NCBI GenBank assembly: GCA_036852015.1
Contig: JAANDG010000405.1
Span: 1 to 64,000, forward strand
Source of the DNA: Pelodera strongyloides
Lineage: Eukaryota > Nematoda > Chromadorea > Rhabditida > Rhabditidae
Length of the DNA stretch: 64,000 nucleotides
Direction of reading: 5' to 3'
Shown here: positions 35,161-63,289 of the stretch, in pieces
Numbering within the stretch: the stretch's first letter is position 1
How the letters are laid out: the number at the start of each line of letters is the position of its first letter
The notes under the pieces: model-generated
Databases searched by the model: none
Told to the model about the DNA's origin: nothing
Seen by the model: only the letters and a program-made list of their open reading frames with translations
Program-made: the position numbers and the translations under genes

Positions 35161-35216
<56 letters not shown>

Positions 35217-38200: not shown

Positions 38201-41200
38201 CCACTGTGCCCAGAATTTTTACAAGCACAAAGACACATTTGTATATCATAAGTTACACGTTACTCTAGTACCGTATTTAAAAAACATACCGTATTTGCGT
38301 CACGTAACTTCTCGACGAGAAACAAACGCTTCCTCAATTGTCGCCACGACGAAGAACTGGAATTGGAATTATAAAAAAAAACTATAAGATTGTTTGAATC
38401 TTTATTTGTGGTTTATAATATATTGAATTGAGACTGGAGTGGGAGTTCTGTTTTCGAAAGCAAAATTGTTATTTAGGACCTAGTTGTAATATATCTAGCA
38501 ATCTAGCCCTTACTACGCACTCTAAGCTCTAATGGTAAGTACTAACTGGGGGCACTTGGAGAACTAGAACTACGGTAGCGGTACGGTACGGTGCAGACTA
38601 GGCCCTACATAACAATTGTGTGAGGTTTAAATTGACCTTACTATTGTCTTGTGAGTATGCAACCCCAAACCAAACCACATTACAACTTTGAATCCTAAGT
38701 CCTCATTTTGCTTATCACGAGCGTCTTCAGTAATATAGAAACTTTTTTGTGTGCATTCACCAGACAAGACCCACTACATCCTAGTTTAGCGAATCGATGA
38801 TCAATAGTTGTCTGATTGCGACATAAACACTGGATATTTTGTATCGTTATATGGATTCCAGATAATAGCTATATGCAATATGATTACAGACAGTTTTCTG
38901 CAAGTTGTGGTGCACAGTTATAAAAGGGACAACATTCGCTTTCTTTCACACGTACCAAATCACGAGCACAAACATAATCATAAGTCTAGACTTCGATCTC
39001 TATACACATTTCTACCTCATCTACTTTATTTTATAAAATGTTTATACTCACATAACTACAAAACAATGAAACTCTGGGACCTACCATTTCTTGTGCTCTC
39101 TGGCTTAACTCGCATATCGTTTAGAAATAAATTTGAACATACAGTAAACGTACATATTTATATACATAACCTAGCTCAGTAAGATCAGCACCAAAAACTT
39201 TGGTAATGTTCTCTACAAGCCCGTGTCTTCATGTTTGTATTCTACCAAACCACCTAACCTATATCTTCTCGTTTAAGAAAAACATGTATAATCAAATACA
39301 TTCAATTCAGATGAGCACCAAATCGTTGGTATTATTCTCGACCGTTACTTGCGGCTTTGCCGTTATCGGGGCCCTCGTCTCTATGGTCATAATCTTCAAC
39401 GACATTAACAACTTCTACAGTGAGTCGCTCGACGATCTCGCAGAGTTCAAGGTCGGTTAGCTGTGAATAGTTTCAGAACAGACAACCTGGTATAGATCAT
39501 GCAAGAGCAAATATTCGAGCAGTTTCGATAAAGATAAGAGCAACACGAGACGCCTTGATGAGATTATCTCTAAAGCATTTATGCACACCATAATGTGGCT
39601 GGAGCGTTATAAACTCCACTGACTAGCGGGGACACCGTACTTATTTTGGTACCTTCCACTTCAACACTCCGCCTGCACACTAGACACGTTTCGCTGCAAC
39701 TAGAAAAATCGTCCATACGAAACCAAAATTCAGAATTACGCCGACGATGCTTGGACCAACATGGTTGACTCTGGCAGCGCCACCCAGAGCCAGGTCTACA
39801 GATCTATTTTCGCTCGCGAAAAACGTCAAGCTGGACATTGCAATTGCGGAGAGCAGCCTAATAATTGCCCAGCAGGACCTCCCGGACCACCTGGAGCACC
39901 AGGTATCCAATCCTTTAAGTTTCCAACCATATTATGGCATAATTGCGTGATATGCATGGCGAGGTATCTAAATAGCTCAGGAGACCTAACCACTACACTA
40001 GATTTTTTGCCTTTCCGGAAAGACGGCAAACAGTTTGCCGGTAATTGGCGACTACAATACTACAAATACACTGTCTCCTGACCTATTCGCATCAAACAAA
40101 GTCATTTCCCAGTCCCTAAGCAATTAATATGCCCCTGTAAAATAAATTTTGACTGTGATGTAATTACATTAATTAGACAATCATTCACTTTCAGGAGCAC
40201 CCGGAGATGACGGAGCCCCTGGAGACGCTGGTGTACCCGGTGGCAAGGGAGTCGGCATGATGACTAACGAGCCACGTGGATGCATCAAATGTCCACCTGG
40301 ACTTGCAGGACCTCCTGGACCTGATGGATCTGCTGGTGAACCTGGAGCAGATGGAGGAGCTGGAGCTCCCGGTGCGCCTGGTGCTAACGGAAACTCTGGC
40401 CCAGATGGAGAGCCTGGTGATGCTGGAGAGGAAGGAGCACCTGGAACGCCCGGACTTCCTGGAGCTCCCGGAGAGAATGGTGAGCCTTCAGTGAAACCGA
40501 GAATCTTAAAAATAAAATTTAATAATTCATCTTCTGTTTGTCGAAAGGTAGGACACATTACCGAACCGCTATTTAGGAACCAAGGGAACTGGAGCTCCCG
40601 GACCTTCCGGAGGACCTGGAGAACCGGGACCTGCAGGTAACGCCGGTCCAGACGGACAATCCGGTCCCGACGGAAAACCTGGAGCCGAAGGCCCTGCAGG
40701 AGCCCCCGGAAAGGACGGAGAAAAGGGAAGCGACGGAAAGAGTGGAAAGGTTAGTGCAAAAAGCATTCATACGGCTCAAGTATCTCCAGTACGCTACGTA
40801 AACTATGCAGTACACTAAACTTACGGCCAGCATTGTGCCTTCGATTTACATTCAAAAAAAACTTCAAAATAAGATCCACGTCCGTTCAATCTTCCGGATA
40901 AAACAGTTTGGAAGATCTAATAATCAGGAGGCAGGGCCAATAAGAAGTTCCAGAAAAGAAATCGATTTCACATAATAAATCGTTTCATTTCAGACCGGAA
41001 CGGACGGAACCCCTGGACCCGATGCCGCATACTGCCCTTGCCCACCTCGCAGTAATGTTCTGGTTGCCGTCAATGCAAACAAGGCATAAATGTCGCCATT
41101 TCTAGATCATATGCTAATTGCTAATTATATATGATCGATTTGTTTTGCTAAAATCATTGTTATATCCAGGGATCCATTATCACAAATAGAGTCCACAGTA

Positions 41201-44200
41201 AAAACCATTCCGTAAAACATATTTGTAATTAATTATTTATTACTTCCAAGTCAACCCAGCTTAATTTATTTGATTATTATTATTATTGGTGCAATTCGAG
41301 TATAAATAAACTATGCAATCAATTAATTATTCATTGTTACATGGTAAATTGTGAGTATCGAAGTATCAGTATCACTGACAGTTACGAACACTACAGATCA
41401 ACTCATTTCTTGAATCGGCTGCCGAATATTTAATACTAATAGGTCAACACTAAAATTATTTTGTGACAATAAACATTACTAAATTCTATAGAAGGACACA
41501 CATTCGAATATTCGAATAATAAACTTTTGACGTTAAAGCGAAATGCCAGCTCCTTTGGAAAATTTGCATATGATAAGCAAATCCTATGTATCCTATGCTA
41601 ATTTTGCGCGATCGTCCACGGCTATCGCGCAAAATTAGCATAGGATATATAGGATTTGCTTATCATACAGTGCGTTTCATAAGTATAAGAACACCCAAAA
41701 AATTTCGTTTTCGGGCCAAAAATGACAGAAACGCTTCAAATGAGTCACACCATTGGATTCAGCGTGGAAAACTGGTCCTGTCCACGAAAATTCGGAATAA
41801 AATATTCAGAATCTCGCCAGAAGGAATTCTTGAACCAAAAGGGTCGTTTTTGCAACTGTTTCATAAGTAAAGGAACACCCGTGAAAATTATAATTTAATT
41901 TAAAATTAAATTGATAAAGAGCTTGAATGCATAAATTAATTATCGGTAGGTCCTTCTTATCCTGCGTCAAGGTCAAATTCTCGGTGGCGCTTCGAAGAGG
42001 CGCGATTCTGGAGAATTCTGACGTCGCCTGCTCTTCGAGACGTGAAGCTGATGTTCGACCGTCGAAAAAGTGTGCTTTTGTGCGCAGTTTCCACAAAAAT
42101 ACCGCCAAATGAGTTTCGAATGGATTCGCATCTGGAGAACATGCTGGAAAGCTCCATGCGTCCTCCAGAAGCTTTGTCTTCTAAACTTCTGAGGATGACT
42201 GACGTTCATTGACTGTTTTACATTCTGAAGCACAATTCCTGGCAGCGGAAAACCCAGTACAAACACTGTAGAGAACATTCTGGGTGATGCCAGTGTCCAT
42301 CCGTGTGCCTGGAAACTCCAGATGAGCGCAGCGTTAGCGTTCCCCCCTAGTGGCGCAGGTCATTCTTGGCAATAATGCCAGAATCCTCAAATCGGTGCCC
42401 CAGATGGTGTTTTCTGATGAAGGCAACTTCGAATTGAACGTGCCGGATAATAAGAAAAGTTCTGATGCGATCTCCGCAGGTTACTGCAGTTCTTCGACAG
42501 GCTCAGATGATGAAGAAGGATCGGCGATGGTTTGGGGACCTTCCACGCTAACGCCACGCTCATCTGGAGTTTCCAATGATGGATGGACACTGTCATCACC
42601 CAGAACGTTCTCGACAGTGTTTGTACTGGGTTTTCCGCTGCCAGGAATTGTGCTTCAGAATGTAAAACAGTCAATGAAGTCAGTCATCCTCAGAAGTTTA
42701 GAAGACAAAGCTTCTGGAGGACGCATGGAGCTTTCCAGCATGTTCTCCAGATGCGAATCCATTCGAAACTCATTTGGCGGTATTTTTGTGGAAACTGCGC
42801 ACAAAAGCACACTTTTTCGACGGTCGAACATCAGCTTCACGCCTCGAAGAACAGGCGACGTCAGAATTCTCCAGAATCGCGCCTCTTCGAAGCGCCACCG
42901 AGAATTTGACCTTGACGCAGGATAAGAAGGACCTACCGATAATTAATTTATGCATTCAAGCTCTTTATCACTTTAATGTTTAAATAAATTATAATTTTCA
43001 CGGGTGTTCCTTTACTTATGAAACAGTTGCAAAAACGACCCTTTTGGTTCAAGAATTCCTTCTGGCGAGATTCTGAATATTTTATTCCGAATTTTCCTGT
43101 ACTGGACCAGTTTTCCACGCTGAATCCAATGGTGTGACTCATTTGAAGCGTTTCTGTCATTTTTGGCCCGAAAACGAAATTTTTTGGGTGTTCTTATACT
43201 TATGAAACGCACTGTATGCAAATTTTCCAAAGGAGCTGGCATTTCGCTTTAATACGCTGATAGTTTTAAAATTACAGTGTTATTTTCAAAGTACATCAGT
43301 ACAGTGATTAAAATCCACAAATACAATATACACCAATAGGTAAGGTTCAGAAACCATGAACATATGCTTCTTTCCAGATCCAATAACTTCACCGTTCAAA
43401 TGTGCAAATAATCCCTACCGCTCATTTCACACAAACTCTTCCCCAAGGTCAAAATAAGAACAACGAACGTCCTTCAAATTAGTGTCTCAGCAATTGTTTG
43501 GAAAAAAAAAGCTAGAAAAAACGCCGATTAAAATCAACCATCTACAGTCAAAGGGCACAAAAACGCGTGAGTTTCGTCACGCGCGCGTGCCCGGGCGCCA
43601 GCATTTCTGCCGCGGGCGAGCGAAAGTCATCTCTGTGTCTCTGGAGAAAATACACCCGCGCGCGCACTCTCTCGTCAGGAATCACTGATCTTATCGAGAA
43701 ACTTCAAACAGCCCGCGCACTGCCAACACCAGAACAATAAACTGCCAAGCCGAGGAAGGACTTTAACTGTCGAGTCCATGAAATGGGTTTGATTGCTCAC
43801 GTTGAAGACGACGACGACCTTCATGTACGCATTCCAGTCTCGGAAAGTCGGATCGGTATAAAAGGGCAGCGAACCCCACAGTAGACAGCATCGGACACCA
43901 ACATGTCTAGAATTCTAATCACTTTTGCCAGCGCCACCAGCGGTGTGGTGATCCTGGGCGCTCTGCTCAGCGTCGCCTACTTGTTCAATGACATCAACAA
44001 CTTTTACACCGAGTCGCTCGAGGACATGCAAGAATTCAAGGTACTGTATATCATTATTCGAGAAATTGCATTGACCAATTATATAATGTAATAATGTAAC
44101 AATTTTAAGTTTTACGAACAACCCTTTGCAACGCGTACCTTATATTATGTCATAACTTGCCACACAAAATGGTAGCCAGATTACGATTTCACATATGAAA

Positions 44201-47200
44201 TGTGAGCGGGTATAGCTTCTCAACCTTTTTCCACGCTGATAATTATCCAATTTTCAATTACTTTCAATTACTTGATAATTGTTTTCAGGCGTACGCCAAC
44301 GACGCATGGACCTCAATGATCATCTCCAACTCTGCCGGCTCTTCAATTGCCAAGACTGTGTTCGGCCGTAACAAGCGTTCCGGAGATTCCTGCAACTGCG
44401 GTGAACAGCCAAACAACTGCCCTGCTGGACCACCTGGACCTCCCGGAGCTCCCGGAGATGCTGGAGAGGATGGTGCTCCTGGACAGCCCGGAAACCCCGG
44501 AACCCCTGGAATCAAGACCACCGTCGACAGCTACGATGTCAAGTCTTGCATCGTCTGCCCTGCTGGACCTCCCGGACCTGCTGGACCTGACGGACCCGCC
44601 GGAGAGGCTGGACCTAACGGAAACGACGGAACACCCGGACAGCCTGGACAGGACGGACAACCCGGACAAGAGGGACCTTCCGGAGACGCCGGACAAGACG
44701 CAACCCCTGGTGCCCCTGGACAGCCTGGAGCCCCTGGAGAGAACGGTAAGAACTAAGAACAGTAGTGGACAACATTATTGGTGGAGTTTTCGAATATTCG
44801 GGTACACAAACTCGAACCATGATCACAAAAAAAACCATATGATTTCAAATTATTCTTTCCAGGAACCCGTGGACATGGAGAGCCTGGACCTGCTGGTGCA
44901 CCTGGAGCCCCAGGACCTGCTGGAAACCCCGGACAAGACGGACAACCCGGTTCCGCTGGAAACGACGGAGCTCAAGGACCCGCTGGAGGACCAGGACAGG
45001 ATGGACAACCTGGATCCGACGGACAGGCCGGACAGCCCGGATCCGACGGAACTCCCGGACCCGATGCCGCCTATTGCCCTTGCCCTCCTCGCTCCTCCGC
45101 TATTGTTGGAGATCAGGCCACCGGAGGATACAGACGCCGTGCTTAAGTCAATCTCACATTTGCACGGAGATTCATTATTTAATCAAGAAAAACCGATTAT
45201 CCAACTCCAAAATCACAATAAATATTGTTTTCCACCAGTTATTGTCATTCATTAGTAAGACAAACTACAGAAGATTCTAGAAAAGAGTCACGTGTAAAGT
45301 GCTCTAATCGCTGGCCGTGTTACCGTAGCTCACAAATTATAGGCATAACATATTAGTTAAGCAGATGTGGCTGGTAGAAAACGCTACACGCAGATGGGTA
45401 GCGATTACTGATTCACTCGAGTAAACTGAAAGATAACAAAAACGAGGTTGTATTGAAACTTCAGGATTCACTCATTTAATTTTACGCTACAAATCAGAAA
45501 AACACTATTCGTCACGAAAATAATTCCCCTTTTGTTGCTCACAGGAAAATGTCCTCGACAGTGACATTGGATACTTACTGTACATATAGGTCGACAGAGC
45601 CATTGGATACATATGTTTGCAGCATTTGCAGAGACTGAGCACCGAATATGTGGAAATTAAAGCGAAATGCCGGCCGGTTTTTGAAAAATATCGTACCAGT
45701 ATTCTTATGTAGCTTATGCAAATCAGCATAATTTATAATAAAAACTTAGCATAAATACGTGAGAATTCAGTTGTCCACGATGCGTTTCAAAAATCGGCCA
45801 GTATTTCGCTTTAAAGCGCATACCCATGTAATACGTGTGTAAGTGTAAATACCTTCATTCACTTGGAATATCACTAATCCAAATCCTGATCACGATCTTG
45901 ACCCTCAACTTTCACTTTCCACATTTCTTGATAGGTATTTCCTTTTTCAATATTCTCTCTCCCAATATCACTCACATTCATCCTTTTACCCCTACCCAAG
46001 GACTTTCACTTTGGCTCGTTAAAGCGATATAACGGCCGGTTTTTCAAAGATATTATGGACAACTGCATTCCCATATGTTGAATGCAAATAAATATAACAA
46101 AAGTGAAAAATCGTGCAGTCATTTGCACACAACACACAGGAATAAAACATCCAACATACGTTTCAGTAGCTGCGTAAATGGCCGTAATATACCTTCGGAA
46201 CACTTAGATACGATCATTCCTTTTTAAAAATATAGTTTTGATGAATGGGAAAATAAGCGAATGCGATAATTCAATAGGGAATCGGGAATGCTGTGAAAAG
46301 TATGAAACAGACACGAGAACCAAAATAGGGACTTGGTGAAAAAATAGACTACATGTTTCACAATTTGTAGATAACTAATATCATCTACAGTACTGAAGCT
46401 ACGCAATATCACAAACCTCCAAGAAAACCCTAACTTTGTGGTGGAAATACGTCCAATACAAAACCCTGAAGCACGATTTTCGTATCTCAGGTCTCAGGGT
46501 AGTTACATTCTTGAAAATCCAAGTTGTAATTATTTTACTAACTATAATAATCATTTTCAACAAATCATACCCAAAGTTATGATGATGACGTCACTCGCTC
46601 CAGACACCCATTTCACCGAAAAACAGAAAAACTCTCTATTGGCACTGATAAAACTCCGATCACTAACTCCATTCTTCTCGATTATCGGTGGCTTATAGTT
46701 CAATCAACATCAATGCCAACCTTCCCATCCGTCCCACAAGCATAACTCAAAAACGTATCGAAAACAACGGCGAAAAACTTGGAAGAAAAGACTCTTATCG
46801 CCCAGGGGGTGTCAATATCATGGTCACTAGTCAACTGTTTGTGTGCAAAAAGCAAAGAAAAGAACTGAGACGCAAGTCTCGCAAAGGGCATCGCTTTCCA
46901 AAGGTGTAAACTTTGACCTTCACCCACCTACTCACCCAAGGCAGCACTCTCACTTTCACCCGAGTATATAAACAAAGCCTGCGGGTATGTCCAGCAGGCC
47001 TTCGACATGTCACGAACTCTGATTAGCATTGCAAGCGGCGCCAGTGGTGTCATCATTGTGGGCGCTGTGCTCAGCGTCGCATATTTGTTCAATGACATCA
47101 ACAACTTCTACGCCGAGTCGCTCGAGGAGATGACGGAATTCAAGGTACTGTAGTATATCACTAGTCCAGAAATTGCAACGAGTAAAAAAAAACTAAATTT

Positions 47201-48735
47201 ACACTTTTTAGTAGAACTTAGAACTTTACTAGGCCAGAGTCAACAGGCTTAATAACATTCGCTTCACGAGGTAGGAAATATTTTCTAGATTAACAAGACA
47301 TGTAAGTTACATGATGTAACAGAGTTCTGATTCCCTAACTTCAGGCGTACGCCAACGACGCATGGACCTCAATGATCATCTCCAACTCTGCCGGCTCTTC
47401 AATTGCCAAGACTGTGTTCGGCCGTAACAAGCGTTCCGGAGATTCCTGCAACTGCGGTGAACAGCCAAACAACTGCCCTGCTGGACCACCTGGACCTCCC
47501 GGAGCTCCCGGAGATGCTGGAGAGGATGGTGCTCCTGGACAGCCTGGAAACCCCGGAGAAGCTGGAATCAAGACCACCGTCGACAGCTACGATGTGAAGT
47601 CTTGCATTGTCTGCCCTGCCGGACCTCCCGGACCTGCTGGACCCGACGGACCCGCTGGAGAGGCTGGATCTAACGGAAACGATGGAACACCCGGACAGCC
47701 TGGACAGGACGGACAACCCGGACAAGAGGGACCTTCCGGAGACGCCGGACAGGACGGAACCCCTGGTGCCCCTGGACAGCCTGGAGCCCCTGGAGAGAAC
47801 GGTAAGGATTTAAGAGTAGCACTAGTTTCATTACGGTAGCCTTCAAACTGTTGGGTAGAGCTACCAGGACCAGAGACTCCCAAGAAACCCACCTGCTTTT
47901 CAAATTATTGTTTACTTTTGCAGGAACCCGTGGACATGGACAGCCTGGGCCTGCAGGAGCACCTGGAGGACCTGGACCCGCTGGAAACCCCGGACAAGAC
48001 GGACAACCCGGAGCCGCTGGAAACGATGGAGCACAGGGACCCGCTGGAGGACCAGGACAGGATGGACAACCTGGATCCGACGGACAGCCCGGACAGCCCG
48101 GATCCGACGGAACTCCCGGACCCGATGCCGCCTACTGCCCCTGCCCTCCTCGCTCCTCCGCTATTGTTGGAGATCAGGCCACCGGAGGATACAGACGCCG
48201 TGCTTAAGCATAGACACACACCTTCTCTTATTTGCACATATTGGAATAAATATTATAATTCCAATTTGCAGTATCCTTGACTGTATTCACTTCATAAGAA
48301 GTGAAAATGCGATAATCTACATAACATTATGAAACGTCGTATTGGACGAGCGAAGGCACAAACAGGCAACTAACAAGCTAACATATGGCTGGGAACCGTT
48401 CACTTAGTTCTAGAAAAACATGGAGTTCATATCCACTCACAAACCGCTCGCGCGACTCAATAAACCACTACGAAATCCACATTACATATGCAATTTGAGC
48501 CGACGTTTATGGTGATTTCGATCGCTGGCGACCAGCAAATAGCAATAAACGAATAAACAAACTATAGCGGATTCAAAGACTATATAAAGCGAGACGCGTC
48601 GTGATTACCCTACACCTTGCACATTTCGCCAGCATCGATTATTATTATAGGAGGAGGAGGATAGGATTGATTATAGGATTATATTATATATTATTAGGAT
48701 TATTATTATTATTATTATTATATTAGTTATTATTA

Positions 48736-48817
<82 letters not shown>

Positions 48818-48819
48818 TA

Positions 48820-48851
<32 letters not shown>

Positions 48852-51800: not shown

Positions 51801-54800
51801 TTAAATAGTGTCTGAAACTTCCCTGTGAGAACGTCTCTGTAAAAAACAGCATGTCTGAAAAAAAATCGAAAACTAGACGTATATAAGTGCAGCGGCTATC
51901 AGCACGGATATTACCTTCAAATAGGAGCAAACGTACAGAAGTTAGTCGTAATCACACATATTTTACACCTCATTTCAAGTCAAAACAGAAAGGAGCTCGT
52001 AAGGACAAGAATACTCAGTTTACATTGCTCCATTACATTCAAAAAAGAACACTTGTTTCTACTCATAATGATATGGTTTTTTTATACATCCAAAACAAGT
52101 CTCCCTCCACATGGTATCAATTCTCTTAGCAAGTACAGTTGCAGTTGTATACCAGTTAACCAGTTAAAACTGTATAAACGAGCAACCAAAAATTTCGCTT
52201 TGTTCATGTTTTTGTTTCAAGTTCTGGTTACTCATCTGCCTGCCAGACCAGCTTTCTCTCTCTATCTCTCTCTCTATCTCTGTCTCTCTCTCTTTCTATC
52301 TCTCCTTACTTACCCTCTCTATTTATTTATCTCACTTCACTCCCTCCCCATCTATATCTCTTTTCCATGGAACGAGCCTTAATGCCTAGGGAACGTTGCG
52401 TAACCTTGACAAGAACCCGGTTCAGATCGCGCCTAGGTTCGAGCGCTAAGCACCCGCTGGCAAAAACCGAATTTGATTGTAGCAAGATACAGACGAAAAA
52501 CGCGATACAGCAGACATAACAGGGTAATTAAAGAGACGGGAGCGGCACTGGGATGGCACGCCCCGGGCGGGGAAAGGAACAACCCCGCCAAGTCGCGACT
52601 ATAAAAGCAAGATCCTGCGTTGGCACCACTATCCGTCCAACGTTCTACCCACTAGAACCTAGATCGGAATAATGAGTGCCAAACTCCTCGCCACCCTAGC
52701 CTCCGTTGCCAGCGCCGGTGTTCTACTCACCGCACTAGTCACCGTTGGATATCTATTCAACGACATTAACAACTTTTACGATGAGTCGATGAGCGACATG
52801 TCCGAGTTCAAGGTAGCTTCTCATTAATTTTGAGCATAATTTTACTTTACTGAATATTCCTTTACTTCACTTTCATTGGGTAGTTACAAGAAATGACTAT
52901 TTACTTTTTCCATTTTTTTTCCAAATATTTCCAAATACTTTTTTTTCCAAATTTCAAATTTCCAAAAGACTATTTCCAAATACTTGTGAACCTTTCATCA
53001 ACGATAAATGTTGTCAAAAACCGACTAACGTTGCTCTCAAAGAACTAGAAATTTCAACATATAACAATAAGCAATACCATATATTTAAAGTTATACAATT
53101 TCAGGTCTACTCCAACGATGCATGGACTAACATGATCAGCTCAATGACATCTGGCAACACTCACATCGATGTTAACACCGTTTTCGGCAGACATAAGCGT
53201 TCCGGTGACCAGTGCGGATGCGGAGCTCAGCCCAACAATTGCCCTCCCGGACCCGCAGGACCACCTGGAGAGCCCGGACACCCTGGAGAGGACGGAGCCC
53301 CAGGAGAGACTGGACAGTCCGGAATCAAGGGAATCTCGATGGTTGGAGAAGCAGCCGATATGGGATGCATCAAGTGCCCAGCCGGACCTCCCGGACCTGC
53401 TGGACCCGACGGACCCGCCGGAGAAGCTGGACCCAATGGCAACGATGGAACCCCTGGCGCACCTGGAGCCAACGGAAACCCCGGAGCTGACGGAGAACCC
53501 GGAGACGCTGGACAGGATGGCACCCCTGGAGAGCCTGGCCAGCCTGGAGCCCCCGGAGAGAATGGTAAGCTTTTGACAAAACATAGAATTTCAGCACAAA
53601 TTGGACTGAATATTTGTGAATAAGGAACGATACGTTAAAATCTCAACCACGATGTTGCTTCAGTCTTCAAATATATTTTCTTTCAGGAACCAAGGGTGTT
53701 GGAGCCCCTGGAGCCCCTGGAGGCCCTGGACAGTCTGGACCCGCCGGAAACCCTGGACCTGACGGACAACCCGGAACCGACGGTCAGCCTGGAGCCGAAG
53801 GCCCTGCTGGAGGACCCGGAAACGACGGACAAGCTGGACCCGACGGACAGCCCGGACAGCCCGGATCTGACGGAACCCCCGGACCTGATGCCGCCTACTG
53901 CCCCTGCCCACCTCGCACTGCTGCCGTCGTTGCCGAAGAGCATTCCCAGCAGTACCTCCGAGCCGCCGCTCGAGCATAAGCACATACATTCAAGATGTGC
54001 GTTTTACTGTGCGATCGTTTCCAATACCAATAAACATTTTGATCGCATACTTTGTTTCCCCACAAAAATGCAATAATCTTCCGAATCACACAAAGAAATA
54101 AACCACCAGTCTCACAGTTCACAGCTCAAAAGTTAGGATACACACTCTAACATTTAAAATTTAGGATACATATTCTAAAAAATTTTTGGAACATCAAAAC
54201 CATCATCCTTCGATAAAAGGACACAAATAGAGGGTGTATTTTTCGTGATTTCAATGCATATTCTCCTATTTATAAAGACTATCAGAGGTTCTACGAACTG
54301 ACGTATACTTCGTCATGAAGGGTTTTCTCCCACGTTACCTCAAATAGTGACCAGTTCCACTTGACACATAATACACGCCGTAACCACTAACAATAAGAAT
54401 AAGTACTATTGTTTTGATACGATTTGTAGCCACGCACTCACGGACACAGCGCCCAGAACAAACCAAATAGCTGAGGCGATAAAATATACAAACAAACACG
54501 TATAGAAAAACACGGGATGCTAGTTAAGTTTAAAAAAAAGCTGCATTGAGATGTGGTATATTACCTTACTTTGTATCAGTCAGACTTAATCCCAACTCCA
54601 AGTACGGGAGCGCAACTCATTATTCATTATGCAAGGCAAACGCGTAATGATGAATAGCACACAGATGAAATTCAGCGACGGGTCGAGGGTCCGCCACATA
54701 GGGGCGGCGAGTCGGCACGCAAGTGGCACGCCTGCCGCGGCCTCCCCTAAAAGGTGCGCAGTAGGCGCGCCAACTGGAAGTGAACACCTGTGGCGCACCC

Positions 54801-57800
54801 CCGAGCAATATCTCGAGAGTATGGCTTTCGCGCACCGCGCACCTTTGGCGCCCCGGCCGCGTACCATATGGGGTGCCCCGCGCCGCTGTGACGGATGTAC
54901 CCGGCGAGAGGTAGAGTTTCACGTTGCATGCATATATAAGGTAATTGGGCTGATAAGAATCAAAGTGGAAGAACCAGAATTACTGATGCATCCCACGCTA
55001 GCTGTGACACTTCACATCGTCATACAAAACAACACCAAGTATTTTTTAAGATAAAATGTTTAAAAATTATATGCATAATTTTAAACATTATGTATTTGCT
55101 CAAACACTATTACTTATACATACATATATTATTCACGCAACATGTGCTACCAATTTCCTCAATAGACGCTCATGTTACTGATGCCAGTTAGGATATCATA
55201 GACGCTAACAACATTTTAGCATATGTTGTTACCAGCCGTTCGAAGAGCCCTACGGGCTCTTCTCCGACTGGAGGAATCGGCCTTCGGCCGATTGTTACCC
55301 TAATTAAAAAAAAGGAATTTCTTCAAACGTAAAAAAGATGTTCATTTACGTTTATGTGGGAACGTATAATATGATTCTGGACTTCATGCAAATTTGCAAA
55401 TTTGCTATTGCAATTGCTCTTCTATCTCCTACCAGCCGTTCGAAGAGCCCTACGGGCTCTTCTCCGACTGGAGGAATCGGCCTTCGGCCGATTGTTATCC
55501 TATTTGAAACATTCACACGTCTACAAAGTCATTTATGGTTGGGGGGAAACGTATAATATGATTCTGGACCTCCATTAGACTACCATGCAAATTTGCCATT
55601 GAATGTGCTTATGTAGAGCAGATTGTTACCCTTATGATAAGCTAGCATAGCTCAATCGGTAGAGCGTTGGACTGTGAATCGAGAGGTTGTGTGCTGCTGT
55701 GGGTTCGAATCTCGCCAGAGGCAAAGATTTTGTATGCTCTTTCGATGGAAGAATTTTCTTTATGAACAGCTTTCGTTGTGCACATAAAAACAAACCCGTG
55801 ACAAACTCTTCTCCTTTATATTCTCCTATAAGATCCTCCTCCTATAAGCTAGCATAGCTCAACAGGTAGAGCGTTGGACTGTGAATCGAGAGATTGTGGG
55901 CTGCTGTGGGTTCGAATCCCGCCAGCGGCAATGATTTTGAATGCTCTTTCGATGGAAGAATTTTCTTTATGAAGGGATTTCGTTGTGCACATAAAAACAA
56001 ACCCGTGACAAACTCTTCTCCTTTATATAATAAGATTACCAATTTTAGTAGATTTACCCAGTTGGCATGTCAGAAACCAGTTGATTTCGTTTCGTTTCCC
56101 CACTCTTCCTTGAGATAATTTACGAATGAACATCTAAGTTTAGATAATTAAAGCTTAAAGCGCTTACCAACAAGACATTAAAGAGTTAGCAAGTTACTTG
56201 TTCATGGATCGCATTCACCACTAATTAGAGGGAAATGCCAACTCATACATACCACAAATCCAAGTCTAGTCTAAAAACGTGCCGTACTACGACATGACCT
56301 TCAAGGACGGGGCAACCAGGTGAATGTGAATCGAAACTACTAAAGGCAAGCGCGAAAGAACACACCAACCCGAGAGACTCACGACTTGTTGGAACTTGCC
56401 CTGCTTGCCCACAACAAGGACGTACATGGCTGGAACACTATCACACCACCCGTATATAAGGCGACAGAAACGCAACAATAGCAAGATCGAGTTGTTTTCA
56501 CTAGTGAAAGCAACTGCAGACCTACAAAAAACATGAGTGCCAAACTTCTCGCCACCCTAGCCTCCATTGCCAGTGCCGCTGTGGCTCTCACTGCCGTGAT
56601 CACCGTTGGATATCTATTCAACGATATCAACAACTTCTACGATGAGTCGATGAACGACATGTCCGAGTTCAAGGTGGTGGTGGTTTCTTCGCTTTTAATT
56701 ATGCTTCTTGCTAGAATGTTGACTTTAAAGCGATATAACAGCCCGGTTTTTTTATGTATGCGGAATACAGTTTGCCGATGTAGAGAATGCAAACCACCGC
56801 GCGATTTTCATAGTCTACTTATATTCATTTGCATAACCAGATGTTAAACCGCTTTAAACGTAGACAGAAATTACTGCAACTATCATACATGATGTCACTT
56901 TGAAGCCGATCGTAAAAAAAGTGTTGTTCATCTACATCATTATCTACTTTTACAATGCCGGCGATAATCCAGCATTAACCATTGAACTGCAAAGAATGAT
57001 CATTTTCAAAAACATTTTTCAGGTCTACTCCAACGATGCATGGACCAACATCATCAGCTCAATGTCATCTGGCAACACTCAGCACATGGACGTCAACACC
57101 GTTTTCGGCAGACACAAGCGTTCCGGTGACCAGTGCGGATGCGGAGCTCAGCCCAACAATTGCCCTGTCGGACCTGCAGGACCACCTGGAGAGCCCGGAC
57201 ACCCTGGAGAAGACGGAGCTCCCGGAGAGCCTGGGCAGTCCGGAATCAAGGGAATTTCCATGGTTGGAGAAGCAGCCGATATGGGATGCATCAAGTGCCC
57301 AGCCGGACCTCCCGGACCTGCTGGACCCGACGGACCCGCAGGAGAAGCTGGACCCAATGGAAACGATGGAAATGTTGGAGCTCCTGGAGCCGACGGAAAC
57401 CCCGGAGCTGACGGAGAGCCAGGAGACGCGGGACAGGATGGAACTCCCGGAGAGCCTGGACAACCTGGAGCCCCTGGAGAGAATGGTAAGCTTTTGATAA
57501 AAAGAATAGAAGCTAAGAAATACACATTGATTGGGATGATACTAGATATGCTTCACCGTTTCATGTTACAAATGTAAATACAATTTTCTTGCAGGAACCA
57601 AGGGTATTGGAGCGCCTGGAGGCCCCGGAGGCCCTGGAGAGCCAGGTCCCGCCGGAAACCCTGGAGCTGACGGACAACCCGGTGCCGACGGCCAGCCCGG
57701 AGCTGAGGGACCTGCTGGAGGACCCGGAAACGATGGACAGGCTGGATCCGACGGACAGCCTGGACAGCCCGGATCTGATGGAACCCCTGGACCTGACGCC

Positions 57801-60800
57801 GCCTACTGCCCCTGCCCACCTCGCACTGCTGCCGTCGTTGCCGACGAGCATTCCCAGCAGTACCTCCGAGCTGCCGCTCGAGCATAAACATATGCACTCA
57901 AGCTTCACAAGTAAACTAAAGAAAGGAATAAAATTTCATCTTCTAGCGTTGTTTCGGAAGTTCAGTTCAGAGTCGTTTCCCATGTGTTCACTATTTGCCA
58001 CCTGTTTATGTTTCTACATTTCTGTGGTTGGAATAGTACCAAGCGGTGTCAGCTTTTACAAAGCAACACCATATTTGATCCGAACATATTGGACCACAAA
58101 ACTTTTAAACTCGACTACTATTCATTGTGGTATTGCCTCGACAAAACTTGTGCGACATTTTATGTTCGTAACAAATGTTACTACAAATCACGCATTTCCC
58201 CGCGATTCGGCTGTAAAAAAGAAAACCCGATTTGTCAAGGATGAGAAGTGACTATTTATGTAACAGAGAGAATCAGTGAAAGTACATACGATACACTCAC
58301 AAAATGCAAACACTACCACACTAACGGGTCCCGCTCACGCAACACAACTCGCTTTTTCTATGTGTGCAACCCACCCAGGGAAACAATTCGGGAAAATATA
58401 TTTGATATTACCCACAAATGTACCGTATTCGAAACCCAAAAATACGTTTCGGACAGTTGTTTTGCAAAACTTCGTGCACCTACGCCTTTAATCTTCTTTT
58501 AAAACACGTGATTATACAGCACAAATATTGTTTGCACAGTTAAACGCATCACAACCGCGACTCCTTTAATTATTAATGAAACAATTGATTAATACACCAC
58601 ACCGCTACCGTACTTTAAATTTAAATATACGGGTATCTTTCCACTAAATACGGCATTCAGTTTCTCTAACTCCAACCCTCCCCACGATCCCGCTCCTTTA
58701 TCTCTACCGCTAGCGTTTTTGCTCGATTCGATCAAACTTCTTTCCTTCTAGCAGATATCGCCGCGGACTGCCATTACATGTTTTTGCTCCTCTGTTTTCT
58801 GCTCCTTCTTCTTTAATCCAATGCCTGGATTGGCTGTATATAAAGCATAAACACAGCCAAACTGACATCGGCGGTTCTTCACAGTCCTCAGAACAACAGA
58901 AGAATGACGAATACGGTTGCCTACGTGGCCTCAGTCGCCTCCTCGGTGACGATTGTCTTCGCCCTTCTCTCACTGGGATTCATCTTTCAAGATATGAACT
59001 CATTCTTTAACAACTCACTCGATGAGTTTGGAGAGTTTAAGGTGAGCGATTTGATCATTTAAAGCGAAATACCGGCCAGTTTCTGAAACGCATCGAGTAC
59101 TCCCTGATTTACTATGCTTCATATGCAAATGAGCATAAATTTGAATAAAAAATAGACCCCAGTAGACCCCTTTTAGCATAACCTCATAAGAATGCTGATA
59201 TTTGAGATGCGTTTCAAAAACCGGCTGGTATTTCGCTTTAAAGAACCGGTTGAGTAATTCGGCGGCAACTCACGGATACCTCGGGAACTATCCTCATGAT
59301 CTATTAACGTCCCGGTAACCAGTGAACGATGAAACAATTCGAGTTTTCGACAAGTTCTCTAAGGACTACATGATAAATAAATAAGACTGAACCTCAAAGA
59401 CTATTCATATTTTTATTTTAGACATTCGCCGATTCCGCTTGGACTGAGCTCCGCGTCATCGAAGCCTCCGAAGTTGGAGCCTCCTCCGTTCTCGGCATCC
59501 GTGGCAAGCGTTCCGCCGACAAGTGCAACTGTGGACCTCAGCCAAACAACTGCCCACGAGGACCTCCAGGACCCAAGGGACGTCGTGGTCAGACGGGTCC
59601 CGATGGTTCTAACGGAGCTCCTGGAGCCCCTGGAGCCAGTGGAGAGTACAAGGACGAGAGCAAGGACAAGGAGTGCATTAAGTGCCCTGCTGGACCTGCA
59701 GGACCAAAAGGATCTGCTGGTCCCCCTGGACCTCCCGGACACGAGGGTCGCGATGGCCGCCCTGGAAGACCTGGACGTAATGGCCGCCCCGGACCCCGTG
59801 GAGAAAAGGGAGACGAAGGCGAGGCTGGAAATCCTGGATCCGACGGAAAGCCCGGTATGCCTGGACGTGATGGAAAGAAGTACACTCCCGTCCCCGGAAC
59901 CCCCGGAAAGGTTGGACGTCTAGGACCTCGTGGAGCCCCCGGAACCAATGGAAACAAGGGAGAAGATGGAAAGCCAGGATCCGATGGACCTCAAGGAGAT
60001 GCCGGATCTGACGGACAACCTGGTGAGGATGGACAAGACGGAGAAACCGGAAGCGATGGAATGCCCGGATCCGATGCCGCTTACTGTCCATGCCCTGAGC
60101 GCGGCTCTGCTGCCGGATATGAGGACTCTGCTGCTCATGGAGGAAACAGCAAGGGAGGCTATGATGCTCCTGCTGCAGCCCCTGCTCCAGCTGAAAATGC
60201 CGCTCCCGCTGCCGCTCCTGACTACGCGGCTGCCCCAGCACCAGCACCAGCACCTGCAGCAGAGGCTTCTCAATATGATGCTGCTCCAGCTCACGTACAG
60301 GCTCATGATGAAGCCGCTGCTGCACCAGAGGCCAAGCCCATGGCCTCAGGATACCGCGTCCGCAAAAACGCTGAAAATCAACGCCGCTTCGTTGCTCATA
60401 GAGCTGTCGTCGCCAATTAAGACACTGATGGATTAATACAACTCTTGCATTTCACTTTTGTCAAGGAATAAAGTTTTGATTCTCTCATTTTGGCTATATG
60501 TAGTTTGCTTGATCATTACATACATATTACCGTACAAAAAGCAGGGCAGTCCATGATATAAAGTGTTAAAATAGTGAAATGTGGAAACATAATGAGTTTG
60601 AAAAGATTCTGAGTTGAGAGAATACAAATAAATAATGAGGTAACTCAGGGCGCAATCAGTGTACGCATGTGTGTACATACGCATCTTGCATTGCTGACTA
60701 TGGTTTGTTAAAATGTGGTGATCAACAACTTCACATTCTTCACAAACAAGAAGCGCAGTTGCAAAAAAAAAAGAAGGCGGCTCTACTCATTGCGACTTCC

Positions 60801-63289
60801 CGAACAGATGCTTTATAATAAAAATGATGTATGCATTGCTTATTGGCTACGCTAAGGAGGTGCAGGCGAGTTAGGGTTGTCAATGTTGCCCAGTACCAGT
60901 AGAAAGCTCACAGAAAAGACCAAGGGCTGGCATAGGATTAGGAAAGAAACTGCTGGCGAATTCAGTGGAATTAAGCCCTATATATAGAAGAAAGGAACGT
61001 GATGAGCAACACAGAAAGGTATAGAACATGGAATGATGTTGAAAGAGATGACGAGACAATCACACAAGAATGAATGTACATAACATAGACGCTGAAGATA
61101 ATATGCAAATTCGAAATTCGACTCAAACCCACTAACCTCTGAACTGAAGTCGTTCCACTGAGAGGGTCAAAGTTGATTACTTTCTGACATTGGGGATGTG
61201 TCATCAGCCACAAGGGTAGAAGCGGGCTTTCCTGGTCACCAATGAAGATAACGGACGCCGATTCACTGTCCACGAAGGATTTCGGGATCACTCGACCGAC
61301 TGACAGAATCTGTAAGACGACTACGGTATACCATGAAATACCGTATCTAAGGTATCTCACGGTTAAATATTACATATAGTTCAAGTTCAATAGTTCGATA
61401 ATAGTTTACATGACACGACACATGTATTTATAATATGTACACATTCAATTGGTATTGCACTGGACCCACTTTCGCATCGTGCTCTCATATACGGTAATTT
61501 AAACATGGATGTTTACGGACGGAACAGAAAAAAGTATCCGCACCCAGATTCGGCATCGGCATTACAAATACGAACGTTCAGTGTAAGAACCAGCAAAACC
61601 ATTTCGTATTATGTCAGTAATTACAGAAGTCAACCAAAACCATACCTTGTCTTCTGGGACATGACCGTCCATATCCGGAACATCACACACGATGACACCG
61701 CGTTGGGTTTTGGAGGTCAGATTTGATGAGAGAGCACCTTAAAGCACTTGTTCCTTCTTGCTCATTTCCCATCTTACGCACTTCCTTACTTTATCGGAGA
61801 ATCCTTCTCCTTCTCAATAACAAGAGTTATGCGTTATGACTAATTTCTGCAAATTTCTCCAAACGGGCTAATTAAGGATACCTCCACAGCTCAACTAAAG
61901 TAGACATTTACGTACAACCACGCGCACTGCAGCAGAAAACAGCTACGTGCTAAAGGTTTGACAAAAAAACAGTACATAAAATACTGAAATCGCGACAAGT
62001 GTGGCATATACCAATAAGCAGCAAAAAGCAGTCTTTTTTTACTCATAGAAAGTATCAGCATAGTAGCCTCCCAAAATTGTAAAAATTTTAAATGATAGAA
62101 CTCACCTAACACGTGTGAATATGGGGAATCGCTAAGCAGGATAATATCATCTTCCATCGTAGAAAGATGTGCAGATATCGATTTTTCGAATGCTACCGTA
62201 TCCACAGGCAGCTTTCCAAGAATATACCTAAAGGATAATTGCATTTAGAGCAGTAATGGCACATGATTCGAGCTTAACCTCAGTGTTTTGCACATATTTT
62301 ACGGTTATTTAAGCTTACTACACCTACGATCAATTGACATATTCACAGTAGCAGAGATCAATATTTAATGTGATGATAAATACACGTATGTATGTACGTA
62401 AAGACGCCTTCAAACCCTAAAACAGACCAACCAACCTGACTGGGATATTCTGTGTCGGTGCACTCAAACACGCATCACCATAATGGACTAAAGCATCACA
62501 GTCAGCGTGAGCAGCGGCAACCTCGTCCACACAACAACTAAACAAAACTTAGATTAGCAATTTATTATCATACTTATTATCATACCACATAATGTGCTAT
62601 GTTTTCTGAACGAATGTACCTGTGTTTTCTTAATAAAGCACTTGATCCATGGTACACATAACACATAAAAAACGGAATTATTGGTTGACGAGCTACTGTG
62701 CCATGTAAAATAGCATTCGCAACAGGTAAAGTTTAGGGACATCAAATAGAAATATTTAATTACCTTCTATAAGATGTGTCCGCGAGTATGAACGTCTTGG
62801 CTCCGGTCGACTTTTCAATTTGATTCGATACAGTTTGAGAGTACTGAAAGTTCTGCATAAGGCTACGCGGCGAAGGAGCGAAGCCACAGTAATTCAAATC
62901 ATAATGCGAAACGTAAATCTTACAGCAATATAAACAGGATATGGCAAACCTTTAGGTATCCATCTGGAAACTGAAGAGCGATACGTTTGTAATTCCCATC
63001 TGTGATCCATCTTATTGTTTCATCTACTTCGAAGAATGACGCGAGAGATGATTCGCTCATCGCCTGAAATAACACGAACGCATGCCAAATGTAAAATACA
63101 ATATCATAACAAATCTAGTATGATTAGAAATAAGTTAGTTTAAAGAGTAGACATTTCCAAAGCGTCTACAACAATTCAATATAAAACTACCTCGATAACT
63201 CCCGAAAGTTGTTGGTCCTGGACAGAGGAAATGTGTTCCGAAGGAACATCATTTGAAAACAACTGATTGACAGAGAAATTCGCTTCCAT
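33381..63289 (-). CDS. dph-2: DPH2, diphthamide synthesis 3-amino-3-carboxypropyl transferase subunit, with a 22.8-kb gene-bearing intron
   Basis: Thirteen exons: 63191-63289, 62950-63063, 62764-62843, 62436-62537, 62106-62227, 61646-61737, 61137-61309, 38290-38356, 37688-37801, 34686-34808, 34375-34453, 33902-34042 and 33381-33505. Lengths sum to 1431 nt (476 aa), every junction in phase. With DPH1, DPH2 starts diphthamide formation on eEF2 using [4Fe-4S] chemistry. Landmarks: [30 protein letters not shown] and [11 protein letters not shown] in domain 1; [38 protein letters not shown] (exons 8-9); [10 protein letters not shown] with the domain 3 Cys; [12 protein letters not shown] at the end. 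Exon 7 ends with two bases that exon 8 completes, and the two meet exactly where the family sequence is continuous. TTTGCAG directly precedes the ATG. Length matches the roughly 490-aa family norm. Confidence 0.92.
34846..34929 (-). tRNA. tRNA-Tyr(GTA) with intron, third copy
   Basis: 84 bases, same as the other two copies except for one A-to-T change at the first intron base, so the mature tRNA would be identical. It lies in DPH2 intron 9, same strand as DPH2. Confidence 0.94.
35159..35213. repeat. (CT)n microsatellite
   Basis: About 50 bases of CT, followed by a broader pyrimidine-rich stretch to about 35490 upstream of the TTR-like gene. Confidence 0.95.
35638..37065 (+). CDS. Transthyretin-like (TTR-52 type) secreted protein
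   Basis: Four exons: 35638-35715, 36069-36150, 36489-36622 and 36925-37065 (144 aa), phases consistent. Signal peptide [18 protein letters not shown]. The mature protein has [50 protein letters not shown] and [14 protein letters not shown], the hallmarks of the nematode transthyretin-like family, including the conserved Cys residues. These are small extracellular beta-sandwich proteins of mostly unknown ligand; some bridge phosphatidylserine on dying cells. AATAAATAAA follows at about 37117. The whole gene lies antisense within DPH2 intron 9 (34809-37687). Confidence 0.95.
37385..37466 (+). tRNA. tRNA-Ser(AGA)
   Basis: 82 bases. GCACCGA/TCGGTGC acceptor pairing, D arm with GTTAAGG, anticodon loop CT-AGA-AA, long variable arm GGGCTCTGCCC, T arm GTAGGTTCGAATCCTGC. 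It lies in DPH2 intron 9, downstream of the TTR-like gene. Confidence 0.95.
37843..38170. repeat. GC-rich dispersed repeat block in DPH2 intron 8
   Basis: Contains CTGCCGCGCCTCCTCCAAAAG and GGTGCGCAGCGAGCGCTCCAA. Close matches to both lie in the same order at about 54735-54775. Overlapping frames on all strands reflect GC content, not coding. Confidence 0.75.
38919..38926 (+). promoter_or_regulatory. TATA box candidate of collagen gene 1
   Basis: TATAAAAG in GTTATAAAAGGGAC, about 390 bp before the start codon. A long outron would separate the two; TTCAATTCAG abuts the ATG. Confidence 0.5.
39311..41089 (+). CDS. Cuticle collagen 1
   Basis: Five exons: 39311-39451, 39734-39902, 40195-40479, 40577-40749 and 40994-41089 (287 aa). 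The N-terminal anchor is hydrophobic residues 5-28, then [19 protein letters not shown], the conserved homology box of nematode cuticle collagens. A subtilisin-type site REKR is at 75-78, then [10 protein letters not shown], Gly-X-Y blocks separated by GCIKC, and a C-terminal [10 protein letters not shown]. Such proteins are cleaved, trimerised and cross-linked into the cuticle. It has more introns than its neighbours and is the most diverged of the A/B/C-type genes. It lies antisense within DPH2 intron 7, and TTCAATTCAG abuts the ATG. Confidence 0.95.
41533..43252. mobile_element. MITE family B copy split by a Tc1/mariner element
   Basis: The left half (41533-41667, TTAAAGCGAAATGCCAGC...) and the right half (43215-43252, ...GCTGGCATTTCGCTTTAA) are the ends of one palindromic MITE. 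The two halves join at a TA dinucleotide where the mariner element entered. Confidence 0.92.
41668..43214 (+). mobile_element. Tc1/mariner element with ~600-bp inverted arms
   Basis: Ends are CAGTGCGTTTCATAAGTATA and its inverse, flanked by TA (41666-41667 and 43215-43216), the mariner target duplication. The left arm (to about 42290) is an inverted copy of the right arm (from about 42600), leaving a unique centre of about 300 bp. The centre has a VFSDEGNF motif near 42410 and VWGPST near 42530, DDE-transposase signatures. The right arm has SPDANPFE near 42745, the third catalytic site. Frames are interrupted, so it is non-autonomous as read. The transposase 3' part is therefore present twice, in opposite orientations. 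Confidence 0.88.
43857..43864 (+). promoter_or_regulatory. TATA box of collagen gene 2
   Basis: TATAAAAG 39 bp before the start codon. Confidence 0.8.
43903..45146 (+). CDS. Cuticle collagen 2
   Basis: Three exons: 43903-44040, 44289-44745 and 44863-45146 (292 aa). Anchor helix about residues 9-29, then [20 protein letters not shown]. Cleavage site RNKR at 73-76, [10 protein letters not shown], Gly-X-Y domains split by [10 protein letters not shown], and the end [27 protein letters not shown] in two segments. It is a close paralogue of the gene at 47007. One Gly-X-Y position reads Ala (codon 44700-44702), where the paralogue has Gly. AATAAA at about 45219. It lies antisense in DPH2 intron 7. 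Confidence 0.96.
45657..45814. mobile_element. MITE family A copy
   Basis: TTAAAGCGAAATGCCGGCCGG at the left and CGGCCAGTATTTCGCTTTAA at the right. The inner part has TTATGCAAATCAGCATAA. Confidence 0.88.
46019..46205. mobile_element. MITE family C copy (degenerate)
   Basis: Starts GTTAAAGCGATATAACGGCCGG. The right end is poorly conserved (GGCCGTAATATACC). TTTGCACACAACACACAGGAAT resembles sequence near 12605 and 12720. Confidence 0.6.
46965..46972 (+). promoter_or_regulatory. TATA box of collagen gene 3
   Basis: TATATAAA 35 bp before the start codon, preceded by CACTTTCACC. Confidence 0.8.
47007..48207 (+). CDS. Cuticle collagen 3 (near-copy of collagen 2)
   Basis: Three exons: 47007-47144, 47345-47801 and 47924-48207 (292 aa). 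Same architecture as collagen 2, with RNKR at 73-76. The first ~200 nt of exon 2 are identical to collagen 2, with about 14 differences over the whole 457-nt exon. The introns are unrelated in length and sequence. That pattern fits recent gene conversion or purifying selection on exons. AATAAA follows the stop at about 48245. Confidence 0.96.
48581..48588 (+). promoter_or_regulatory. TATA box candidate of collagen gene 4
   Basis: TATATAAA about 615 bp before the start codon. The space between is an (ATT)n-rich presumptive outron ending in TTTTCAG at 49201. Confidence 0.6.
48645..49000. repeat. (ATT)n microsatellite
   Basis: About 350 bp of ATT/TAT triplets with occasional breaks. The array resumes for about 27 bp (49169-49196) after the hairpin. 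Confidence 0.97.
49034..49170. repeat. Perfect inverted repeat, 67-bp arms, 3-base loop
   Basis: TTCAGTGTTGTGGTGAGC...GCTCACCACAACACTGAA, mirrored exactly about position 49102. It lies between two parts of an (ATT)n array, 32 bp before the collagen 4 start codon. Confidence 0.95.
49202..51676 (+). CDS. Cuticle collagen 4 with long Pro/Thr/Ala/Gln-rich C-terminal extension
   Basis: Five exons: 49202-49414, 49699-49948, 50198-50341, 50597-50719 and 50928-51676 (492 aa). TTTTCAG abuts the ATG. Anchor helix about residues 10-30; [25 protein letters not shown] continues in exon 1 without the intron all other cluster members have at this point. Cleavage site RNKR is at 77-80. The first Cys motif is diverged ([11 protein letters not shown]), there are short Gly-X-Y blocks, and [10 protein letters not shown]. 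About 205 further residues rich in P/T/A/S/Q follow, ending [22 protein letters not shown]-type collagens also carry long tails, but orthology is not shown. Confidence 0.93.
52600..52607 (+). promoter_or_regulatory. TATA box of collagen gene 5
   Basis: TATAAAAG 65 bp before the start codon, downstream of a GC-rich stretch. Confidence 0.75.
52672..53979 (+). CDS. Cuticle collagen 5
   Basis: Three exons: 52672-52812, 53105-53564 and 53687-53979 (297 aa). [16 protein letters not shown] anchor, [20 protein letters not shown], cleavage site RHKR at 76-79, [15 protein letters not shown] interruption, [15 protein letters not shown], end YLRAAARA. It is a paralogue of the gene at 56533. AATAAA at about 54029. 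Confidence 0.96.
54662..54915. repeat. GC-rich dispersed repeat block
   Basis: CTGCCGCGGCCTCCCCTAAAA and GGTGCGCAGTAGGCGCGCCAA match the block in DPH2 intron 8. Confidence 0.75.
55231..55298 (+). repeat. Twin-hairpin repeat, copy 2
   Basis: GAAGAGCCC-TAC-GGGCTCTTC and AATCGGCC-TTC-GGCCGATT in tandem, opposite orientation to the copy at 18666. Confidence 0.92.
55430..55497 (+). repeat. Twin-hairpin repeat, copy 3
   Basis: Essentially identical to copy 2 through the whole ~65-bp block. The intervening ~130 bp are not duplicated between the two. Confidence 0.92.
55638..55818 (+). mobile_element. tRNA-like SINE unit, copy 2
   Basis: Head GCTAGCATAGCTCAATCGGTAG...GGTTCGAATCTC with a GTG at the anticodon position, then the shared body (ATGCTCTTTCGATGGAAGAA...CTTCTCCTTTATA). 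Acceptor and anticodon stems pair poorly. Confidence 0.7.
55849..56030 (+). mobile_element. tRNA-like SINE unit, copy 3
   Basis: Same head and body as copy 2, 30 bp downstream in the same orientation. Both end in CTTCTCCTTTATA followed by AT-rich sequence. Confidence 0.7.
56453..56460 (+). promoter_or_regulatory. TATA box of collagen gene 6
   Basis: TATATAAG 73 bp before the start codon. Confidence 0.75.
56533..57887 (+). CDS. Cuticle collagen 6 (paralogue of collagen 5)
   Basis: Three exons: 56533-56673, 57023-57485 and 57595-57887 (298 aa). Same plan as collagen 5, with RHKR at 77-80 and one extra residue (QHMDVN for HIDVN) before it. Differences in the Gly-X-Y region are mostly at X/Y positions (for example NVGAPGADG for TPGAPGANG). 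Intron 1 contains a family C MITE (56724-56858). AATAAA at about 57927. Confidence 0.96.
56724..56858. mobile_element. MITE family C copy in collagen 6 intron 1
   Basis: TTTAAAGCGATATAACAGCC at the left and TTAAACCGCTTTAAA at the right, with ATTCATTTGCATA inside. Collagen 5 lacks it at the same site. Confidence 0.8.
57888..58836. other. Gap between collagens 6 and 7
   Basis: AT-rich. Open frames at 57.6-58.5 kb lack start context, splice signals or family features. Nothing else seen. Confidence 0.5.
58837..58844 (+). promoter_or_regulatory. TATA box of collagen gene 7
   Basis: TATATAAA 60 bp before the start codon. Confidence 0.8.
58904..60420 (+). CDS. Cuticle collagen 7 with Ala/Pro-rich tail
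   Basis: Two exons, 58904-59041 and 59422-60420 (378 aa). Anchor about residues 8-28, [21 protein letters not shown] at 73-76, [14 protein letters not shown] interruption, then a basic Gly-X-Y stretch ([16 protein letters not shown]) unlike the acidic repeats of its neighbours. [12 protein letters not shown] is followed by about 110 residues rich in Ala/Pro with Tyr, ending [19 protein letters not shown] plus VVAN. AATAAA at about 60466. It is the outermost collagen, closest to DPH2 exon 7. Intron 1 contains a family A MITE. Confidence 0.95.
59059..59241. mobile_element. MITE family A copy in collagen 7 intron 1
   Basis: TTAAAGCGAAATACCGGCC at the left and GGCTGGTATTTCGCTTTAA at the right; CATATGCAAATGAGCATAA inside. 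Confidence 0.88.
60421..61136. other. Distal part of DPH2 intron 7
   Basis: Downstream of collagen 7, AT-rich, no exon signals seen on either strand. Confidence 0.5.

Follow-up and report, generated by a model that had tools for sequence, protein, structure and literature searches.

In Caenorhabditis elegans, the cuticle collagen genes col-79, col-39, col-80 and bli-1 form a cluster within an intron of dph-2 and run in the opposite direction to their host, and the dph-2 collagen nest also occurs in C. briggsae and C. brenneri (PMC10657453, 2023). From a deletion described in the same paper, we infer that exon 5 of C. elegans dph-2 adjoins bli-1, whose transcription is confined to late L4 and the early adult in this species (PMC10657453). 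The host gene is C09G5.2 (PMC8789292), and col-79 and bli-1 are C09G5.3 and C09G5.6 (PMC3597506), bearing out a statement in our first-pass annotation, made from the DNA letters alone, that the C09G5 region holds a DPH2 homologue with collagen genes nearby; its suggestion that the linkage is old is likewise supported. Another collagen gene, bli-2, sits in intron 4 of zyg-1 (PMC10657453). More generally, a protein-coding gene lying in an intron of a host that is read in the other direction constitutes an opposite nested configuration, of which C. elegans has 567 pairs, including ceh-10 in polq-1, a nesting present in six of six nematodes examined (PMC12274878). Literature searches on nested genes and collagen, Gart and cuticle protein, and bli-1 and Pristionchus found no paper. 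In Drosophila, a pupal cuticle protein gene is nested inside Gart.

Here we describe a dph-2 nest in Pelodera strongyloides, in a window comprising the whole 64,000 nt analysed (contig JAANDG010000405.1, positions 1 to 64,000). Like the C. elegans dph-2/bli-1 nest, and in keeping with its definition, the locus consists of antisense cuticle collagen genes clustered in an intron of a dph-2 orthologue. The two are likened by host, gene family and orientation; the P. strongyloides nest differs in holding seven collagens rather than four, in containing the near-identical pairs colB/colC and colE/colF, and in being accompanied by a transthyretin-like gene in intron 9. The bli-2/zyg-1 nest has a different host and a single collagen, compared with seven in DPH2. 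Opposite nested pairs such as polq-1/ceh-10 share with DPH2 the antisense placement of protein-coding genes within a host intron, but not the presence of seven members of one structural family in one intron. Gart, a housekeeping gene as DPH2 is, resembles it in carrying a cuticle protein gene antisense in one of its introns, but it is an insect locus with one nested gene, and its protein families are unrelated to DPH2 and collagens. Having been published for three Caenorhabditis species (PMC10657453), the DPH2 collagen nest is not new in kind, and the novelty that the first-pass annotation implied for a collagen cluster inside a housekeeping gene falls away; what is new is its occurrence in a further clade V nematode, with seven genes where C. 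elegans has four, and an indication that Pristionchus may share the linkage. Judging from sequence comparison, we consider it most likely, with a probability of roughly 0.8, that DPH2 is a single-copy gene whose intron 7 holds seven independent antisense collagen genes, and that this is the C. elegans dph-2 nest, enlarged locally.

The host gene and its long intron

The host gene and the exons that flank the nest are as follows.

33381..63289, minus strand: DPH2 host gene, 13 exons, 476 aa, 2-(3-amino-3-carboxypropyl)histidine synthase subunit 2
61137..61309, minus strand: DPH2 exon 7, 173 nt, upstream flank of intron 7; donor ...TCAGAG/gttagt
38357..61136, minus strand: DPH2 intron 7, 22,780 nt, GT-AG, containing the collagen cluster
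38290..38356, minus strand: DPH2 exon 8, 67 nt, downstream flank of intron 7; acceptor ttccag/TTCTTC

The DPH2 model starts with an ATG at 63289, ends with a stop at 33381 and contains no internal stop; all 12 of its introns are GT-AG. Its product carries a Diphthamide_syn domain (PF01866, 9.4e-81, residues 65-374 in a Pfam search) and is similar over its full length, with about half of its residues identical, to nematode DPH2 proteins, one of which is its best database match (52% identity, 99% of the query covered); together these features identify it as DPH2. Three solved Dph2-type sequences matched it more weakly than the nematode proteins did. A splice acceptor lies directly 5' of the ATG, a position compatible with trans-splicing. 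Trees of 34 and 18 rows placed the window protein in an identical 12-row Rhabditina group (support 99/98 and 89/96, respectively), which we take to be clade V; branching inside the group was unsettled in both trees. A clade uniting the window DPH2 with Caenorhabditis was not rejected (AU p = 0.32), and Caenorhabditis without the window protein was supported at 91/92.

As the first-pass annotation had stated, exons 7 and 8 lie 22.8 kb apart. None of the remaining eleven introns, at 106-2,879 nt, comes near this length, and the distance could be taken to mean that DPH2 is in fact two separate or decayed fragments. Several observations count against such a reading, which we regard as improbable in the extreme. 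Splice sites are present on both sides and homology is full-length; the 2-nt overhang AG of exon 7 is completed by the T of exon 8 to give one Ser codon, and the reading frame stays open. An eight-row alignment of DPH2 with seven other nematode DPH2s is colinear at the join, with one two-column gap, so that the continuity of the protein across the intron, also part of that annotation, holds. Finally, a PF01866 profile search of the 160-Mb assembly returned six exon matches, two in DPH2 and four on contig C32, where the sole other PF01866 gene found contains GDVTYGACCVDD, presumably a DPH1-like motif. Neither this search nor DNA searches around exons 7 and 8 found a second DPH2, full-length or otherwise, and the DNA of exon 7 and of exon 8, with surroundings, is present in one copy each in the assembly. 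At the level of sequence, DPH2 is thus confirmed as one intact gene.

Three features of intron 7 could confuse assembly, namely a microsatellite, a palindrome present in many copies and a hairpin without mismatches, and the collagen cluster might conceivably have been misinserted between DPH2 exons. We consider a chimaera of this sort very improbable: the window contains no N, the contig runs on to 136,576 bp, and a dph-2 nest of like kind has been published elsewhere (PMC10657453). The palindrome lies between the first two collagen genes.

41664..43218, no strand assigned: palindromic multicopy element, 1,555 nt, in intron 7; outer arms of 540 nt, 98% complementary

At least 28 near-full-length genome copies of this element, the intron 7 copy included, were counted among the 40 of 126 candidates scored; 21 have 88-100% identity and seven 76-79%, with copies elsewhere reaching 97%. 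Its ORFs (two frames tried) had no Pfam match at E 0.1, and its identification as a Tc1/mariner relic was dropped on that account. The presence of the element contributes to the greater length of the intron. The microsatellite lies around 48638-48950; microsatellite family D1 is low-complexity sequence. The hairpin at 49033-49171 consists of inverted 68-bp arms that pair perfectly around a 3-nt loop; it ends 30 nt 5' of the colD ATG and has weak matches to the mir-5886 family on both strands, under the gathering score. Elsewhere in the intron, a 185-nt repeat occurs twice within 55637-56028 at a spacing of 207 nt, with a weak plus-strand tRNA match in each copy.

Seven antisense collagen genes and their signals

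The nested collagens are listed in window order, with the positions of TATA boxes given relative to the ATG and those of AATAAA relative to the stop.

39311..41089, plus strand: colA, cuticle collagen, 5 exons, 287 aa; acceptor TTCAG at ATG; AATAAA at +216
43903..45146, plus strand: colB, cuticle collagen, 3 exons, 292 aa; TATA at -46, AATAAA at +71
47007..48207, plus strand: colC, cuticle collagen, 3 exons, 292 aa; TATA at -42, AATAAA at +38
49202..51676, plus strand: colD, cuticle collagen, 5 exons, 492 aa, long non-collagen C-terminal tail; acceptor TTTCAG at ATG
52672..53979, plus strand: colE, cuticle collagen, 3 exons, 297 aa; TATA at -72, AATAAA at +50
56533..57887, plus strand: colF, cuticle collagen, 3 exons, 298 aa; TATA at -80, AATAAA at +40
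58904..60420, plus strand: colG, cuticle collagen, 2 exons, 378 aa, Ala/Pro-rich tail; TATA at -67, AATAAA at +47

All seven models are complete, with a start, a stop and GT-AG introns, and all seven lie on the plus strand within 38357-61136 while the host is on the minus strand, so the locus is an opposite nested configuration and the count of seven plus-strand collagens in one DPH2 intron, first made in that annotation, is upheld. Col_cuticle_N was matched in every one of them, as were Gly-X-Y repeats, and both collagen Pfam domains were found in all five full-length models submitted (colA, colB, colD, colE and colG). On both strands of the window, runs of at least seven Gly-X-Y triplets fall exclusively inside colA-colG. 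By eye, an RXXR subtilisin site precedes the Gly-X-Y part of each protein (REKR, RNKR, RNKR, RNKR, RHKR, RHKR and RGKR in colA to colG, respectively), corresponding to Homology Box A of cuticle collagens (PMC10657453). A BLI-1-like member would be expected to have extensions at both termini; colD has its long tail at the C terminus and lacks a long N-terminal extension, and colG is the nested collagen closest to DPH2 exon 7. A minus-strand ORF at 59678-60325, antisense to colG, was not accepted as a gene.

The first-pass annotation had credited all seven genes with their own TATA boxes and poly(A) signals, a claim that stands for colB, colC, colE, colF and colG and fails for colA and colD. In those five, a TATA box lies 42-80 nt 5' of the ATG and AATAAA no more than 75 nt 3' of the stop. 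The background in the rest of the intron was taken from overlapping windows, the collagens' own 3' flanks included: of 160 windows 120 nt long, 22 contained TATA, and of 128 windows 150 nt long, 25 contained AATAAA. Measured against it, binomial P values for enrichment were 0.0008 for TATA and 0.004 for AATAAA. No AATAAA was found within 300 nt past the colD stop. A splice acceptor, TTCAG, abuts the ATG of colA and likewise that of colD, suggesting that their transcripts are trans-spliced or have a further exon upstream.

Under the preferred reading, the collagens would be transcribed from their own promoters, presumably in the hypodermis around moults, and DPH2 would be transcribed through them, the whole 22.8 kb then being spliced out. 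The first-pass annotation raised the possibility that long antisense co-transcription couples or conflicts with moult-timed collagen expression, and the arrangement could indeed have functional consequences. Moult-active bidirectional collagen promoters might give rise to short DPH2 transcripts truncated at the 5' end; alternatively, read-through from DPH2 might damp the collagens between moults. The TATA elements of five of the seven collagens are consistent with such coupling, and there is a precedent in C. elegans, where the nested gene ceh-10 brings about a short transcript from polq-1, its host, and where, across the 567 opposite pairs, the mean probability of host expression where the nested gene is expressed is about 0.5 (PMC12274878). 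However, nested pairs are on average less co-expressed than neighbouring non-nested pairs, and for polq-1/ceh-10 the authors favour a by-product reading (PMC12274878). On balance we find coupling doubtful, and it would be unnecessary to account for the nest.

A second nested locus, additional to those in the first-pass annotation, occupies another intron of the host.

34809..37687, minus strand: DPH2 intron 9, 2,879 nt, second host intron
35638..37065, plus strand: transthyretin-like gene (PF01060), antisense in intron 9; rough four-exon model
37384..37467, plus strand: tRNA-Ser(AGA), in intron 9 beside the transthyretin-like gene
34845..34929, minus strand: tRNA-Tyr(GTA), in intron 9 on DPH2's own strand, 36 nt upstream of exon 10

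The transthyretin-like gene, matched by PF01060 at 8.4e-22 on the rough model, is the eighth nested antisense protein gene of DPH2. tRNA-Tyr occurs three times in the window with equal Rfam score, at 34845-34929 (minus strand), 18778-18862 and 31384-31468. To the left of DPH2, minus-strand frames of an LTR-type retrotransposon span 2030-6079, the domains for protease, reverse transcriptase, RNase H and integrase being spread over distinct frames that overlap or adjoin one another.

Local duplication and the origin of the nest

At least 120 Col_cuticle_N matches were found in the genome (150 of 173 candidates scored), seven of them in DPH2 intron 7. No other collagen cluster found in the genome is as dense: equally long stretches on contigs C65 and C473 come next, with four matches each. 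Two more collagen N-domains lie on the nest's own contig, at 124.9 and 135.1 kb, beyond DPH2. Apart from itself, colE is matched best in the genome by colF, colB and colC, all in intron 7, and colA by colE, colF, colB and colC. Because these best matches fall within the nest, at least five of the seven collagens (colA, colB, colC, colE and colF) look like local duplicates. The two closest pairs are each 93% identical, with dS of 0.17 for colB/colC and 0.27 for colE/colF; in both, exons are 81-97% identical and introns just 49-62%, a pattern of alike exons and diverged introns that points to gene conversion limited to exons or to strong constraint on codons. Local duplication is not supported for colG. 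Its closest genome relative seems to lie on contig C552 (C552:71516-72562, minus strand), with 72% identity over about 100 residues and, summed over three exon matches, 225 bits compared with 138 for colB, so that the C552 gene looks closer to it than the nest members do.

The affinity of colG for a collagen elsewhere in the genome is among the observations that would fit separate entry of collagens into the DPH2 intron here and in Caenorhabditis. COL-79, COL-39, COL-80 and BLI-1 were not recognised among the collagen matches listed (for colE, 120 of 184). Within the same 120 of 184 matches, the Caenorhabditis proteins nearest colE are presumably encoded on C. elegans chromosome I and C. remanei chromosome IV, and not on chromosome II, so that the best listed matches would lie off C. 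elegans chromosome II and orthology between the two nests would be weak. Collagen nesting is, moreover, not unique to dph-2, given bli-2 in zyg-1 (PMC10657453). Independent colonisation would nonetheless have had to produce the same host, the same gene family, the same opposite orientation and a cluster in P. strongyloides and Caenorhabditis alike, and the proximity of DPH2 and collagen tags in Pristionchus mayeri also speaks against it; we judge it unlikely.

The P. mayeri DPH2 is PMAYCL1PPCAC_09186 and a collagen matching colE is PMAYCL1PPCAC_09188, both on a contig of 44,588,995 bases. Assuming that tag numbering follows the contig, two tags so close together hint at DPH2-collagen linkage in this species too. 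The _09188 collagen is one of five listed for P. mayeri, the others being _09848, _09849, _19717 and _31313. The listed collagens of P. entomophagus (9280, 9328 and 25677) do not adjoin its DPH2 (8908), nor do those of Steinernema carpocapsae and Diploscapter pachys adjoin their respective DPH2 genes, and P. fissidentatus has no collagen among the matches listed (120 of 184). In an unspliced genome search, the best match of the _09188 collagen was on contig C473 and not in the nest. When it was compared with the spliced nest models and 21 other collagen ORFs of this genome, trimmed, colE/F led by 231 to 221 bits, a narrow margin in a comparison biased by the choice of this collagen through the colE search.

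On the preferred reading of an inherited nest, local duplications inside the intron would have enlarged what was already there. Such a nest may persist because relocating the cluster would break DPH2, while duplication within the intron would cost the host length only. Intron 7 would in this way act as a synteny lock, within which the collagens multiply.

A possible positional anchor for collagen orthology

These elements can be joined, speculatively, into a wider picture. The intron may have been a synteny-locked collagen nursery since early clade V, whose members diverge past the reach of sequence-based orthology. Position in the nest might then mark counterparts of strut collagens outside Caenorhabditis, candidates being colG, which would adjoin the upstream exon as bli-1 does, or the long-tailed colD; moult-timed bidirectional firing might add short hypodermal DPH2 transcripts. 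We regard this combined picture as rather unlikely.

In the literature searched, the dph-2 nest is barely covered, by a few lines of methods in PMC10657453, and it is now extended to another nematode. If the nest is ancient, it would provide a positional anchor for collagen orthology where sequence alone fails. It would thereby bear on the evolution of strut collagens like BLI-1 beyond Caenorhabditis, a matter that the text of PMC10657453 leaves open.
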